This document shows, piece after piece, positions 24,362 to 29,804 of a stretch of 64,000 nucleotides of DNA. This stretch comes from Pyramidobacter sp. YE332 (GTDB taxonomy: Bacteria; Synergistota; Synergistia; Synergistales; Dethiosulfovibrionaceae): NCBI RefSeq assembly GCF_033060595.1, contig NZ_CP133038.1, forward strand, positions 1,922,001-1,986,000, in the 5' to 3' direction. The translations under genes were made by a program, and so were the position numbers. Below the pieces are notes generated by a model. It worked only from the letters and a program-made list of their open reading frames with translations, was not told where the DNA came from and searched no databases. Numbering within the stretch: the first letter of the stretch is position 1; every line of letters starts with the position of its first letter.

Positions 24362-24432
24362 TTTTTGTAAAGTCTCGCGCTGTCATTGAATTCCAACGGC
24401 GCAGAAGGAGTGACCTGACCATGACGGGAAAT

Positions 24433-24474
24433 TGGAAATCCAGCGCCGACGCGCCGGAGATGGAGGGGCGGCAG
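24433..24474 (+). repeat. left copy of 42-bp direct repeat bounding the island
   Basis: Exact copy of 28986-29027. It corresponds to 14 codons of udp. Between the copies lie 4,511 bases of accessory DNA, so it behaves as an attachment-site or target duplication. Confidence 0.95.
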
Positions 24475-24481
24475 AAGACAC

Positions 24482-24512
24482 AAAAAAAGCCCCCACCAAC
24501 GAAGGTGAGGGC
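24482..24512 (-). terminator. intrinsic terminator reading out of the island leftward
   Basis: GCCCTCACC and GGTGGGGGC pair around a 6-base loop, followed on the minus strand by T7. No minus-strand gene is left nearby, so it is probably a relic of a lost gene next to the left end. Confidence 0.7.
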
Positions 24513-24545
24513 AAAAAGCAAAATATTAGATTTGTGGGTGACTTG

Positions 24546-24977
24546 ATGCGCGTCCCAGTCGTTAGCCGCGAAATGACGGCGTGCTGCGGCCCGGGAATCG
24601 GAGCAATGGACGTGACTTCTGAATCTGAAGAGCCTGTCTGGATTTCCCGCAGCGAGCTTCGGGCTTATGACGATCTTCGCCCGCCGTTTGCGATTTATGC
24701 AGATGGCGACTGCCTTGCATCCGACGACATAAAATCCGAGGACAAGGTTATTATCAATCCGGCGGAAGAAGCTCAAAACGGTTCCATCGTTTTGGTGCGC
24801 ATGTATGGGATGCTATCTCTTAAAAGATATTATCTGTTACCGAATGATACGGTTGTGCTGCGGAGCGATGACGGAGAGCAGCGGTTGACTCCGAAAAAAC
24901 AGGAAGACGCGGATTTTACTATTATCGGCGTTATGATTGGTTTTTTTCGCGGATGCCCCGGATTGCGATCATTTTAA
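24546..24977 (+). CDS. S24/LexA-type repressor C-terminal domain, truncated
   Basis: 143 residues matching the C-terminal half of phage repressors of the LexA/CI type. The linker MRVPVVSREMTACCGPG and the beta-rich S24 fold are visible. The N-terminal helix-turn-helix is missing. At the place of the usual catalytic serine (GDSM) the sequence reads DGDCLAS, so the nucleophile would be Cys. The catalytic lysine appears kept in LSLKRYYLL. It is probably inactive as a DNA-binding repressor. Translation could be coupled through TGATG to the udp fragment driven by the native udp signals. Confidence 0.75.
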   Translation: MRVPVVSREMTACCGPGIGAMDVTSESEEPVWISRSELRAYDDLRPPFAIYADGDCLASDDIKSEDKVIINPAEEAQNGSIVLVRMYGMLSLKRYYLLPNDTVVLRSDDGEQRLTPKKQEDADFTIIGVMIGFFRGCPGLRSF

Positions 24978-25001
24978 GACTAAAAGAGAGGACGAATCCG
25001 T

Positions 25002-25340
25002 ATGAAAAAAATAGTGATCTTCTTCTTTGTTCTCAGTGTCATCTTCTGTGCTAATGCCTTTGCAAAAGAAAAAACTTCGCAGGAAATCCAGGAAGAGCGA
25101 GCAAGAATCAACAAAAATCCGGCGGTAATTGTTTTTAACGCTATGATTAAGAACGCGACTCTCGCAGATTGCGAAAACATTGCCATCTCTGCCAAACTCC
25201 TTTTAACCTATGTCATCACAAAGCAGTTAAAACAAAATTCCAGTAATACCTACGAAGCCGAAATTTTGATAGCGTCTCTCGATCCTCGGACAGCCGATAT
25301 AGCGTATAACAGAGCAAAAGCCGAATTAGGGTTTGTTTAA
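25002..25340 (+). pseudogene. small exported protein, 3' end replaced by an IS5-type insertion
   Basis: The ATG at 25002 follows AGAGAGG and starts a clear signal peptide (KKIVIFFFVLSVIFCANAFA). The mature part (TSQEIQEERARINKNPAVIV...) is helical and not recognised. The last three residues and stop come from the left end of the IS, which begins at 25329. Removing the element and one TA joins the frame at 26211 and continues open to 26465. A neighbouring frame there (RYNGASDTFSFLDSLQQDWG, then stop) also looks coding. The original C-terminus is therefore uncertain. Confidence 0.65.
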
Positions 25341-26208
25341 AAAACGTCAAAGTTGCCTAAATCGATCCAATCGCTTAAACTTTTCTCATGGAAGAGAGAA
25401 GATATGAACTGACCTCCAGCGAGTGGAATCGAATCAAGAGAATGCTGCCGCCCGAACACCCGAAATCAGGTCAACGTGGACGCCCGGCAAAATACGATAA
25501 CCGCAGGATCATCAATGGGATTCTGTGGCTTGCCAGAAGTGGAGCGCCATGGAGAGATCTTCCGGAGCGTTACGGCAAATGGCAGGCAGTTTACGCACGT
25601 TTCAGGCTGTGGAAACAGCGGGGAATATTCGAGGCGATCTTTGCCGCCCTAAGCGCTGATGCCGACATGGAAAATCTCTCTATCGACTCCACGTCCTGCA
25701 AAGTACATCAAAGTGCCAACGGGAGAGGGAAAACCCCGGAAGGGGGAAAAAAGGGGCTCAAGCGATTGGCATGTCCAGAGGCGGCAAGAATACGAAAATT
25801 CATGCGATAGTAGATGGTTTAGGCAATCCGCTGGCGCTCCTGCTCAGTCCCGGCAATGACCACGATTCCCGCCATGCCGTGTCCTTGCTCGGGCAAGCGG
25901 AAATCAGAGGGAGCAACGTCATCGGCGATAAGGCTTACGGTTCGCAAGCCATCAGAGAGTACATTACTTCTCGGGAGGGAAGTTACACTATCCCGCCGAA
26001 GAGCGATAATCCCGAACCGTGGTTTATAGATGAGCATGTTTACAAGGAACGACACTTGGTTGAATGTTTCTTTCAGAAAATCAAATGGTTCCGTAGAATT
26101 TTCACCCGCTATGACAAACTTGACGCTTCGTTTTTCGCTTTTGTTCTTGTCGCTGCCAGTGTTATTTTATTGAAATAATACAAGCTGAAATGTTTTTTAA
26201 ACAAGCCC
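25329..26208 (+). mobile_element. IS5-family (IS427-like) insertion sequence, 880 bp
   Basis: Near-perfect 17-bp inverted repeats, GGGTTTGTTTAAAAAAC at 25329-25345 and the complement with one change at 26192-26208, are flanked by TA on both sides (25327-25328 and 26209-26210). They enclose two overlapping transposase frames. Size, TA duplication and two-frame structure fit the IS427 group. Confidence 0.92.
25388..26178 (+). CDS. IS5/IS427-type transposase made by -1 frameshifting (orfA-orfB)
   Basis: orfA (25388-25810) holds the N-terminal domain (YELTSSEWNRIKRMLPPE) and the first catalytic Asp (SIDSTSCKVHQ). orfB, in the -1 frame up to 26178, holds the second Asp (GDKAYGSQ) and Glu (ERHLVECFFQKIKWFRRI). 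The heptamer A AAA AAG at 25747-25753 lies in the correct phase of orfA. A -1 slip there gives KKGAQAIGMSRGGKNTKIHA, the normal family sequence, and a fused protein of about 263 residues. orfB alone could also start at 25771. Confidence 0.92.
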
Positions 26209-26465
26209 TAGATACAACGGTGCATCAGATACGTTTTCTTTCTTGGATAGCTTACAACAAGACTGGGGACGTTATAAATAAAGACCCTGTATTATCGTCT
26301 CAATGGATTAATATTTCCCCTAAATCCTTCCTTTACAAAAAATCACAAGTCAAAACTCAAGTTTCGATGAGATGCTATATGAAATCAATCTCTCCGAGAA
26401 AATACAATATTTTGTCTCAAGAGCCCTTTGTGGATTTGAAAAACAAACAAATCTATCTGAAGTAA
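26209..26465 (+). other. right flank of the IS5-type insertion, displaced coding remnant
   Basis: This AT-rich stretch continues the 25002 frame after the IS (DTTVHQIRFLSWIAYNKTGD...). A second frame gives RYNGASDTFSFLDSLQQDWG then a stop. It overlaps the 5' part of the WYL-like membrane protein gene. Which frame was translated cannot be decided from one copy. Confidence 0.4.
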
Positions 26466-26971
26466 TTCCTCCTCGCCCCGCCCCTTCACAACCTGTTATC
26501 GTTCCAGCGAGAAACACTCCTCAGCCTTTGCCTCCTAGCACAGCAAAAAACCCCTCCCCAAACTCATCTACGGCTGCGATAGCTGCTTTCGTTCCTTTAG
26601 TCGGTTTTGCCTTTTTTGTCTGGATAAATTTTTTACTCATGCGTAAGGCCGTAAAAGATGGTATCCTCCGTGCCCATAAAGTAATACAGAAAACGGCGGA
26701 AGGGAATACTTCGCCATGTCCCCCTGCTATAAAGTTTTCGTTTGAAGATTCTCCTCAATCAGCTTCGGATGAAACGGATTATTGGAACAAGCGTAAACGC
26801 ATCGAAGACGCCATCGAGAATCATCGACTCATCACTTTTAGATACCACCGCCGAAATGAAATTGTCCTCGAATCGATGTATTTGAAGAAATACAAAAGTC
26901 ATTGCGTCATAGGGCGACGGCAGAGCGATGGCGCCATTCGAGCATATAAGATCAAAGATATGATCTTCTGA
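26372..26971 (+). CDS. membrane protein with C-terminal WYL-like domain
   Basis: 199 residues. An N-terminal segment and a Pro-rich linker (VIPPRPAPSQPVIVPARNTP) lead to one membrane helix (AAFVPLVGFAFFVWINFLLM). A cytoplasmic part ends in RIEDAIENHRLITFRYHR, then LESMYLKKYKSHCVIGRR, then RAYKIKDM. This order (basic helix, F-x-Y strand, L-x-x-x-x-x-x-x-V-x-G, R-x-Y-x-I) resembles a WYL ligand-binding domain. No DNA-binding domain is seen. GC content is low compared with flanking core genes. The ATG has only a weak ribosome site, so the start is uncertain. Confidence 0.6.
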   Translation: MLYEINLSEKIQYFVSRALCGFEKQTNLSEVIPPRPAPSQPVIVPARNTPQPLPPSTAKNPSPNSSTAAIAAFVPLVGFAFFVWINFLLMRKAVKDGILRAHKVIQKTAEGNTSPCPPAIKFSFEDSPQSASDETDYWNKRKRIEDAIENHRLITFRYHRRNEIVLESMYLKKYKSHCVIGRRQSDGAIRAYKIKDMIF

Positions 26972-27172
26972 TTTATTAAACCTAAAGGAGACCAGCTATT
27001 AAAAGTCAAGTAGGAAATTCGAGCTCATGCCCGAAGTATTTCTAGCCGGTTGCCCGCGTGAAAAAGCCAAAGCGCCCCTGAAAACGGCATATTGGACAGA
27101 ACTCAGACAAAACAAGCACGCGAACGAGCTCACACGGAAGCGACACGAGCAGGGAACCCCGCGGGAACAGGA

Positions 27173-28360
27173 TCATTCTATGCCCTGGCGGCGTACCTCG
27201 TAAGGTTTGTTGGCTTTCAGAACAGCGTAAATCGTATAAAGCAGTTTTCTCGACACAGCCCCCAATGCAGTCCCATGCGCTTTCCCCTCGCCGCGCTTCT
27301 TTTCGTAGAACGCTTTGAAGACAGGATCGCATCTGACTGCTATCAGCGCCGACATCCAGACAGCTCGTCTCAGGTAGGGGGATCCTTTCTTGGACAAGCG
27401 GTTGTGCTGGCCGACATAGTTCCCCGATTGAAACGAAGTCGGATCGATCCCGGCAAAGGCGACGAGTTTCTTGGGATTGGAGAAGCGGCTGATATCGCCG
27501 ATCTCACCGAGGATCACGACGCCCGTCGCCGGCCCCACGCCGGGGACAGTGAGGATGACAGAGCTAAACTTCCTCAGCTGCCGGGCGATCTTCTTGTCGA
27601 TCTCATCGATCTGCTTCTCCGTGAATTCGATCTGTTCGATGAGAATCCTGATTTGAAAGGCAAAGGCATCCGAACACAGAGTCAGGCCGACCGAACGCGC
27701 CGCCAGAGACTTGAGCTCACGGGCTTTGTCAGTACCGTGCCGGCCCCGGCTGGTTTTTCTGAGCAAAGCGGCCAGCGATTTCGTGTTCACGTCGACCACC
27801 TGTTCCGGAGTGCCGTACGTCTTGAGAAATGCCTTTGAACTCTCGCCAAAGACGTTGGAGAACAAGGCAGCATACTCCGGAAACACCTGATCCAGAACGG
27901 TGACGACCTGTCGCTTGTAGTCGGCGCAGGAGTCCTTGAGCGACTCTCTGAAACGGGCCAGATTGCGCAGCGCCATGATATCTTCATCAGCCAGATGAGT
28001 TTCGCTGAACGAGCCGAAACGGATCACCTCAGCCACCAGAAAGCAGTCGACCGCATCCGTTTTCTGCTTCCGGATGTGGAAGTTCCTCAGACTGTCGGAT
28101 TGGATCGGGTTGATCACATGCAGAGCAAAACCCTGCTCCCGCAGAAAGGAGTAGAGCGCGAGCCAGTAATGACCGGTCGCCTCCATGCCGATACAGAAAG
28201 CCTCCCGCTCGGGAAGACTCTGTTCGAGAAAGAGCAGAAGCTGCTGAAAGCCCTCCCGAGCATTGGCGAAACGCAGCGACTTGCCGACGTGGCTGCCGTC
28301 CTCCCTGATAAGCCCTGCTTCGTGATTGTTCTTCCCGATGTCAATACCAAGATAGTACAT
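27173..28360 (-). CDS. IS110-family transposase (DEDD plus serine recombination domain)
   Basis: 395 residues, full length. The N-terminal RuvC-like DEDD domain begins YLGIDIGKNNHEAG and continues with EATGHYWLAL and KTDAVDCFLVAEVI. The C-terminal Tnp_20 domain has VPGVGPATGVVILGEIGD and FAGIDPTSFQSGNYVG with the conserved serine. IS110 enzymes recombine DNA guided by a bridge RNA encoded next to the gene. The element's ends lack inverted repeats and could not be fixed. It lies inside the 42-bp-repeat island, on the opposite strand to its neighbours. Confidence 0.93.
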   Translation of the reverse strand: MYYLGIDIGKNNHEAGLIREDGSHVGKSLRFANAREGFQQLLLFLEQSLPEREAFCIGMEATGHYWLALYSFLREQGFALHVINPIQSDSLRNFHIRKQKTDAVDCFLVAEVIRFGSFSETHLADEDIMALRNLARFRESLKDSCADYKRQVVTVLDQVFPEYAALFSNVFGESSKAFLKTYGTPEQVVDVNTKSLAALLRKTSRGRHGTDKARELKSLAARSVGLTLCSDAFAFQIRILIEQIEFTEKQIDEIDKKIARQLRKFSSVILTVPGVGPATGVVILGEIGDISRFSNPKKLVAFAGIDPTSFQSGNYVGQHNRLSKKGSPYLRRAVWMSALIAVRCDPVFKAFYEKKRGEGKAHGTALGAVSRKLLYTIYAVLKANKPYEVRRQGIE

Positions 28361-28612
28361 GAGTCACCTCACCACAACGTATTTGCAGGTGAATTCTCAC
28401 GCTTCCTGCGGCTCACAACCTCCTTGGACAGACGGAGAAGACCTTCGGTCTCAACATCCAGCTCATTCGTGAACTGCCGCAAGAGGTGAGGCGCCACTCT
28501 CCTTTACGAGGAAATGTCCCCAAGGAAACAAACGGCGACGCTCACACTGCATGCTGACATTATCGCAGATTGTTCCGTTCAATAATCTGTCAACAAGTGC
28601 GACTACATTATT
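28361..28612 (-). other. IS110 5' non-coding region, candidate bridge RNA locus
   Basis: About 250 bases without a gene lie directly upstream of the IS110 transposase, where IS110-group elements encode their bridge RNA. On the minus strand they contain hairpins, for example AGACC-GAAG-GTCT near 28437-28452 and a longer arm around 28480-28520. No RNA boundaries or guide loops could be assigned by eye. A TTGACA and a GATAAT occur near 28565-28595 but are too far apart for a normal promoter. Confidence 0.45.
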
Positions 28613-28627
28613 CTAGGAGGTAGTCTC

Positions 28628-28861
28628 ATGAAAAAGTTCCTGTTTATCATCTGCGTGGTATTGGGTTTTGCAGGCACGGCATTTGTTCAAGACACCTACG
28701 TCAACGGCTATTACCGCAAGGACGGCACTTACGTCCAGGGGCATTACAAGTCGCCGAGCAACGATTATTTCTATGACAACTACTCCAGCTCCGGGAACCG
28801 CAACCCCTACACCGGAGAAAAAGGCTACAAGAAATACCCCAAGAATCCCTACGGGTATTAA
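28628..28861 (+). CDS. small exported tyrosine-rich protein
   Basis: 77 residues. The ATG has CTAGGAGG nearby. A signal peptide (KKFLFIICVVLGFAGTAFVQ) precedes a short mature chain rich in Tyr, Gly and Lys: VNGYYRKDGTYVQGHYKS, then YDNYSSSGNRNPYTGEKGYK. The YRKDGTYVQGHY motif is common in small secreted proteins of bacteria and phages, without an assigned function. It lies between the IS110 element and udp, inside the island. Confidence 0.8.
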   Translation: MKKFLFIICVVLGFAGTAFVQDTYVNGYYRKDGTYVQGHYKSPSNDYFYDNYSSSGNRNPYTGEKGYKKYPKNPYGY

Positions 28862-28973
28862 AGCCGACTCCCGCGGCTCCGCATTGTAGCTGTTGCCATA
28901 CGATAGAGGTAAAAGCTTCTCACACAATCTCTTAAGTGCCCTAAACAGTGTCCTAAACGAGGTGGATATAACA

Positions 28974-29804
28974 ATGGTGAATGCGTGGAAATCCAGCGCC
29001 GACGCGCCGGAGATGGAGGGGCGGCAGTACCACATCCAGTGCGCGCCCGGCGACGTGGCGTCTTATGTGCTTCTGCCCGGCGATCCCGGCCGCGCCGACG
29101 TGATCGCCGCAACGTGGGACGAGCGGCGTTTCGTCGCCGCCAACCGCGAGCACCGCACGTTCACGGGAACGACCGGCGGCGCGCCCGTTTCCGTCACTTC
29201 CACGGGCATGGGCGGTCCATCGACTGCCATCGCCGTGGAAGAATTGCTCCGCGTCGGCGCCGACACGTTCATCCGCCTCGGCACCTGCGGCGTCATCCAG
29301 GAAGACATCGCCTGCGGCGATCTGATCGTCAACACGGCGGCGGTGCGTCACGACGGGGCCAGCAACCTGTACGTGGAAGACCGTTACCCGGCCGCCGCCG
29401 ATCACGAGGTGACGCTGGCGCTGATCGAGGCCTGCGAGGAACTCGACCTGACGTATCACGTGGGGCTCACCTGCTCCACCGGCTCGTTCCACTGCGGGCA
29501 GGGGCGCCCCGGTTACCGCGGCTACCGGCAGTCGTTTTTCGAAAACGTCGTCGAGGACCTACGCCGCGCCCGCGTGCTCAATTTCGAGATGGAGGCGGCC
29601 ACGCTTTTCACGATGGGCAATCTGTACGGCTTCCGCAGCGGCTGCCTCTGCGTGGCCGTGGCCAACCGCGTCACCGACGAGATGGTCTCGTCGCCGCTCG
29701 AACCGGCCATGGCCGCCTGCAACCGGGCGGTCCAGATCCTCTGCGTCCGCGACGCGAAAAAACGCGCCGCCGGCAAAAAATACTGGACGCCGCGGCTCGG
29801 GTAA
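28974..29804 (+). CDS. udp: uridine phosphorylase
   Basis: Cytoplasmic nucleoside phosphorylase that splits uridine into uracil and ribose-1-phosphate. The 276 residues show the phosphate-binding LPGDPGRADVI, GTGGAPVSVTSTGMGGPST (PNP/UDP signature), RLGTCGVIQ and the substrate region NFEMEAATLFTMG. The gene is intact, but its first codons (MVNA) and ribosome site (GAGGTGG) come from the island; from residue 5 it is identical to the remnant at 24421. A convergent terminator follows. Confidence 0.95.
   Translation: MVNAWKSSADAPEMEGRQYHIQCAPGDVASYVLLPGDPGRADVIAATWDERRFVAANREHRTFTGTTGGAPVSVTSTGMGGPSTAIAVEELLRVGADTFIRLGTCGVIQEDIACGDLIVNTAAVRHDGASNLYVEDRYPAAADHEVTLALIEACEELDLTYHVGLTCSTGSFHCGQGRPGYRGYRQSFFENVVEDLRRARVLNFEMEAATLFTMGNLYGFRSGCLCVAVANRVTDEMVSSPLEPAMAACNRAVQILCVRDAKKRAAGKKYWTPRLG
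28986..29027 (+). repeat. right copy of 42-bp direct repeat bounding the island
   Basis: Exact copy of 24433-24474, in frame within udp. Left of it, two related 10-mers (GCCCTAAACA and GTCCTAAACG, near 28938-28960) could be recombinase arm sites. Confidence 0.95.

Follow-up and report, generated by a model that had tools for sequence, protein, structure and literature searches.

The 199-residue open reading frame (ORF) that a preliminary description presented as a single-pass membrane protein with a WYL-like end is probably what is left, at the 3′ end, of a cargo gene that has decayed within a prophage remnant, a reading which we consider the best explanation of the locus as a whole. The ORF lies in a stretch of 64,000 nucleotides from Pyramidobacter sp. 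YE332 (the window, to which all positions refer unless a contig is named) and, as first described, it is island-borne: the island measures 4.5 kb, is bounded by 42-bp direct repeats and interrupts a nucleoside phosphorylase gene in its 5′ end. Decay of a prophage together with the arrival of insertion sequences (IS) is an ordinary event and would explain the ORF; what would be unusual is the domain order that we reconstruct for its ancestor.

Predicted topology of the ORF and its WYL-like C-terminus

The ORF listing gives 199 codons without a stop at 26372-26971, and when the stretch was resampled by dinucleotides, chance frames as long as this arose in 2 of 1000 cases. The parts of the ORF are as follows.

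26372..26971, + strand: the reported 199-residue ORF, most likely the 3′ part of a broken cargo gene
26468..26557, + strand: Pro-rich linker, residues ~33-62, predicted extracytoplasmic side (sequence; charge bias)
26573..26644, + strand: predicted transmembrane helix, residues ~68-91 (hydropathy)
26792..26968, + strand: WYL-like domain, residues ~141-199, predicted cytoplasmic side (profile matches, below the Pfam cut-off)

The ORF contains a single hydrophobic segment (best 19-residue window at residues 70-88, mean hydropathy 2.22), in keeping with the single-pass protein originally proposed, and domain searches gave no helix-turn-helix match, which agrees with the stated lack of a DNA-binding part. 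Lys and Arg account for 1 of the 15 residues before the helix and 5 of the 15 after it; because of this bias and the positive-inside rule, the Pro-rich N-terminal part is predicted to lie outside and the WYL-like C-terminus in the cytoplasm. Outside placement of the N-terminal side agrees with the need of an upstream signal peptide. The WYL domain had been thought to be tethered to the membrane by a Pro-rich linker; however, the main Pro-rich stretch is N-terminal of the helix, so it would lie across the membrane from the WYL-like domain and not tether it.

The evidence for a WYL-like domain is weak but consistent from one method to the next. PF13280 matched the whole ORF with 12.3 bits (E 0.18) and the isolated C-terminal domain with 15.7-16.1 bits (E 0.012-0.015), and no other Pfam family matched. 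The alignment of the isolated domain spans positions 5-60 of the 70 in PF13280, with an N-terminal helix, basic residues and a terminal strand in register over most of the domain, as in WYL proteins. The PADLOC WYL model gave an E of 0.0033 and was the only PADLOC match. A local profile that combines 25 WYL domains from this phylum scored the domain at 11.1 bits, versus 10.4 for the best shuffle (0 of 2000 shuffles reached its score); a profile of six WYL sequences had given just a short weak match. When the domain was compared with the WYL profile in hhalign, 54 columns aligned (P 4.9e-4, probability 32%). These matches weakly suggest that the C-terminal ~60 residues are WYL-like, and on their strength the domain may adopt the WYL fold.

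We call the domain WYL-like and not a member of the family because its score is under the Pfam cut-off, the structure models have no barrel, and other weak PF13280 matches include false ones. The same observations speak for a different reading, which we doubt on balance but take seriously, in which the resemblance to WYL arose by chance and the C-terminus belongs to a phage membrane protein as an unrelated tail, basic and either helical or rich in strands. The curated cut-off for PF13280 is 21.8 bits, so the WYL-like C-terminus of the preliminary description holds in its consistent PF13280, PADLOC and hhalign matches and falls short in its score, which reaches 16.1 bits on the isolated domain. 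Elsewhere, PF13280 matches of 17-19 bits in other genomes of the phylum include evident false ones, such as RelE/ParE-like toxins. Structure prediction, proposed earlier as a check for an Sm-like fold, gave two single-sequence AlphaFold2 models (pLDDT 73 and 69) in which a single helix makes up most of the structure, the end is of low confidence and no barrel is seen, but models of this kind are unreliable. Against a chance resemblance stand the fact that PF13280 and the PADLOC model are the sole matches in their collections and align nearly the whole domain in register, the failure of every shuffle to reach the score with the independent profile, and the hhalign result.

If the domain is WYL-like, it differs from WYL proteins in being under the cut-off, membrane-tethered and without a DNA-binding or enzyme domain. 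An excerpt of PMC4012209 names as WYL partners wHTH, helicase, nuclease, nucleotidyltransferase, BRCT and TerB, with no membrane-spanning partner among those it names, and the ligands proposed in that excerpt are nucleotides or nucleic acids. Elsewhere in the same genome (G000) there are three identical full-length WYL-domain matches (C1:9704, 2734979 and 2760766) in open frames of 254-334 codons; these are unrelated to the 199-residue ORF.

A cargo gene probably broken by an insertion sequence and a frame change

The ORF is flanked by two insertion sequences, and an exported frame lies upstream of it.

25002..25328, + strand: 5′ part of the cargo gene, predicted signal peptide and start of an exported Adhesin_E-like domain (RBS-like AGAGAGGA upstream)
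25327..26210, + strand: IS5-family element in the cargo gene (TIR TAGGG[T/C]TTGTTTAAAAAAC; inverted repeat)
26211..26371, + strand: continuation of the exported Adhesin_E-like domain in the frame of 25002-25328 (read-through past the IS; profile matches)
26985..28620, - strand: IS110-family element (ends taken from three copies at least 99% identical in the same genome)

Both elements are typical of their kinds, with nothing unusual about either. The IS5-family element has terminal inverted repeats, a transposase in two overlapping frames (25388-25810 and 25771-26178) and near-identical genomic copies; its ends are fixed by a second copy in the same genome that is 99.7% identical and has different flanks. 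The IS110-family element has one transposase ORF (27173-28360, - strand) without evident terminal repeats, and there are about ten near-identical copies in the same genome. Its insertion point is the ribosome-binding site of a downstream gene for a 77-residue protein; the copy split this site yet rebuilt AGGAGG at its own end.

The frame from 25002 opens with a signal peptide (MKKIVIFFFVLSVIFCANAFA start with a hydrophobic core) and resumes at 26211, directly beyond the IS5-family element, as DTTVHQIRFLSWIAYNKTGDVINKDPVLSSQWINISPKSF. No stop interrupts the frame of the 199-residue ORF from about 26324 onward, and the change from one frame to the other is placed within 26324-26371. The left half alone has no Adhesin_E match, and the read-through matches PF16747 across the IS junction with 15.0 bits. 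When the first residues of the 199-residue ORF (DEMLYEINLSEKIQYF) follow the ISPKSF stretch, the match rises to 19.4 bits (E 0.0013), versus 16.6 bits for the upstream frame's own continuation and 16.5-17.6 for four scrambled tails; the gain from the tail is a modest 2-4 bits, and the score is below the PF16747 cut-off of 23.7 bits. A local Adhesin_E profile from eight proteins of the phylum gave 19.9 bits, versus a mean of 13.8 for 300 shuffled tails, none of them above 19.2. The putative product resembles the Surface-adhesin protein E family (PF16747) in its exported ~100-residue domain with a W-x-x-I-x-P-x-S ending, and like the members of the same phylum, which are secreted, it has a signal peptide. 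It differs from them in its sub-cut-off score and in that a linker, a transmembrane helix and a cytoplasmic part follow where the family's proteins end.

These results support, as the most economical reading of the sequence, one gene broken by the IS and by the frame change. Alternatively, there may have been a pair of overlapping genes, one for the upstream frame and one for the ORF. The ancestral chain would have run from a signal peptide through an extracytoplasmic Adhesin_E-like domain, a Pro-rich linker and a helix to a cytoplasmic WYL-like domain. Because the first residues of the ORF complete the Adhesin_E-like domain, the "about 195-residue" and 199-residue proteins of the preliminary description are probably one broken gene. 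The intact envelope sensor set imagined there is not supported. Of the two exported partners in that set, the 77-residue protein is an exported phage cargo protein, and the ~195-residue one presumably corresponds to the two parts of the IS-split gene joined across the IS (109 + ~86 residues).

Comparison with G011, a genome of the same species, shows how the gene ended. Around the IS110-family copy the window reads TTTATTAAACCTAAAGGAG before and GGAGGTAGTCTCATG after, and the uninterrupted sequence in G011 is TTTATTAAATCCAAAGGAGGCAGTCCCATG; the stop of the 199-residue ORF runs into the same sequence as precedes the 77-residue gene in G011. The stop is therefore native, and the 77-residue gene originally followed directly after this gene.

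The native stop in its native slot would also suit an intact, separate gene expressed as an envelope sensor, with the Pro-rich tail outside and the WYL-like domain in the cytoplasm; a promoter within the IS could still allow expression of the ORF. Such a gene would account for a frame longer than 99.8% of resampled sequences, and the transmembrane and WYL-like matches are real enough. We nevertheless regard an intact gene as quite unlikely: no ribosome-binding site is evident in the 20 bases before ATG 26372, the first residues of the ORF complete the Adhesin_E profile of the upstream frame, IS elements lie immediately on either side, and no relative of the ORF was found in genome contigs, viral contigs, plasmids, phages or 188 genomes of the phylum. 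Rather than a complete gene, the ORF most likely represents the 3′ part of one that has been broken, and the cargo gene today is probably a pseudogene.

Those same collections yielded no intact copy or relative that would prove a one-chain ancestor, phylum-wide surveys of WYL matches and Adhesin_E proteins found neither TM-WYL nor Adhesin_E-TM proteins, and a PDB sequence search with the ORF returned nothing. Within the family, the low-E matches to the ORF are confined to its Pro-rich part and do not represent relatives. With the upstream half as query, the searches found just one partial paralogue in the same genome and another in G011, neither of which has the membrane part. These truncated paralogues of the 5′ part (L045:4917-5210, G000 C1:2003916; L046:6411-6644, G011 C101) share the same end point, before a PadR-like regulator gene. 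Programmed frameshifting from the upstream frame into the ORF was set aside, since the gene is already interrupted by the IS and inspection by eye revealed no suitable slippery site.

The island as the right end of a prophage

The remaining features of the island connect it to phages.

24421..24474, + strand: 5′ end that the host nucleoside phosphorylase gene had originally, now severed by the island (contiguous with the rest in G009 and G010)
24433..24474, + strand: attL, left 42-bp direct repeat (repeat search; the same repeat bounds the G011 prophage)
24475..24977, + strand: C-terminal (S24 peptidase) part of a phage repressor, helix-turn-helix missing (PF00717 E 2.7e-10; phrog_4 E 6e-12)
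24498..24529, + strand: 32 nt identical to a CRISPR spacer of G011 (32 of 33 nt, consecutive; contig C114)
28628..28861, + strand: 77-residue exported phage cargo protein (phrog_29674 E 2.1e-15)
28974..29804, + strand: host nucleoside phosphorylase gene, which takes a new start from the element (ORF; comparison with relatives)
28986..29027, + strand: attR, right 42-bp direct repeat (repeat search; comparison with G011)

In the related species G009 and G010 the site is empty and the nucleoside phosphorylase gene uninterrupted. In G011 (contig C133) the same 42-bp repeats lie 44 kb apart, with a prophage between them that carries an integrase (phrog_1, E 8e-50), terminase, portal, major head protein, tail fibre and repressor. 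The ORF listing shows no integrase or structural genes in 24475-28985; because these are absent here and present at the same site in G011, we term the island a remnant. The new start of the nucleoside phosphorylase gene at attR reads ATGGTGAATGCG TGG..., and the G011 prophage supplies one likewise.

Directly beside attL is the repressor remnant, which is 46% identical to the part after the helix-turn-helix of a complete repressor in viral contig L122. At the other end, the 77-residue protein has a 98.7% identical counterpart adjoining attR of the G011 prophage. Judged by its sequence, the island is the right-end remnant of a prophage, made up of a truncated repressor, the cargo gene, the 77-residue gene and attR, plus two IS.

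The spacer that matches the island comes from a G011 array (C114, L117) with 20 repeats, a 28-nt repeat and 33-nt spacers, type I-E-like by eye; another spacer of this array matches G011's own resident prophage at 32 of 33 nt and is thus self-targeting. The spacer matches are independent evidence that such elements attack the species. That the cargo gene was instead a chromosomal surface-protein gene unrelated to phages, in an island composed of IS elements, is very improbable: the two IS make up more than half of the island and the chromosome has a partial paralogue of the 5′ part at another place, but the att repeats are common to a complete prophage at the same site, an S24 phage repressor remnant is present, a CRISPR spacer matches the island, and the 77-residue gene and its upstream sequence are common to the G011 prophage.

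The slot after the repressor

Prophage cargo ("moron") genes beside the repressor include those for superinfection-exclusion proteins such as P22 SieA/SieB. The cargo gene lies in such a place, beside the repressor in the lysogeny region, and encodes a predicted membrane protein. Four related phages, of which two are distant (one phage in G011, three in viral contigs), have predicted membrane proteins encoded among the first genes that follow the repressor, with 99 residues (G011, L044), 64 (L067), 167 (L122) and 110 (L123, zinc-ribbon), which look unrelated to one another and to the 199-residue ORF. By analogy, this variable slot fits genes for lysogenic conversion or superinfection exclusion, and one of these is the most likely role of the cargo gene; we infer exclusion from gene position and membrane topology alone. 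Excerpts of the literature describe SieA as a prophage-expressed exclusion protein (PMC10883804) and the lipoprotein Ltp of Streptococcus phage TP-J34 as an example of superinfection exclusion (PMC3952083). The cargo gene is like those of SieA/SieB and Ltp in that its putative product is located in the envelope and its place is next to the repressor, close to an att end in a temperate phage; it differs in that no sequence relation is seen, the gene is broken, and the domain layout is another.

Relatives of the 77-residue protein in viral contigs also sit beside repressors or integrases. Small exported Tyr-rich proteins of this kind, with a YYRKDGTYV motif (phrog_29674), recur in several kinds of viral contigs (L067-L075), usually adjoining a repressor or integrase.

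Proposed history

A temperate phage would have integrated site-specifically in the 5′ end of the nucleoside phosphorylase gene, giving the 42-bp att repeats. Most of the prophage would then have been lost, including the integrase, the structural genes and the DNA-binding half of the repressor, and the right end kept, with the repressor tail, one membrane-protein gene, the gene for the 77-residue exported protein and attR. The membrane-protein gene would have come immediately after the repressor, in a slot from which lysogens express genes that alter the host. It would have been broken by an insertion of the IS5 family and a change of frame, and an IS110-family insertion would have parted it from the 77-residue gene.

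The original product was most likely an envelope protein made in the lysogen, probably for superinfection exclusion or another lysogenic conversion, and its cytoplasmic end may have been a ligand- or nucleic-acid-binding signal part, or an anchor part. Read from the predicted domains, a receptor that reports an envelope event to a WYL-like module is possible. The broader idea that the phylum's temperate phages carry a post-repressor transmembrane receptor, Adhesin_E-like outside and WYL-like inside, that relays envelope events such as attack by another phage across its helix to a nucleic-acid- or nucleotide-sensing module is speculative, and we think it unlikely.

Implications

As it stands today, the locus is probably a decayed prophage cargo gene, and it cautions that ORFs split by an IS should not be taken for separate proteins. 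In an intact relative, should there be one, an envelope domain would drive a WYL-like module, and this domain order is not among the WYL architectures named in the excerpt of PMC4012209. In this under-studied phylum, phage exclusion genes may also be sought in one small interval, which runs from an S24-type repressor to the 77-residue exported protein or the att end.
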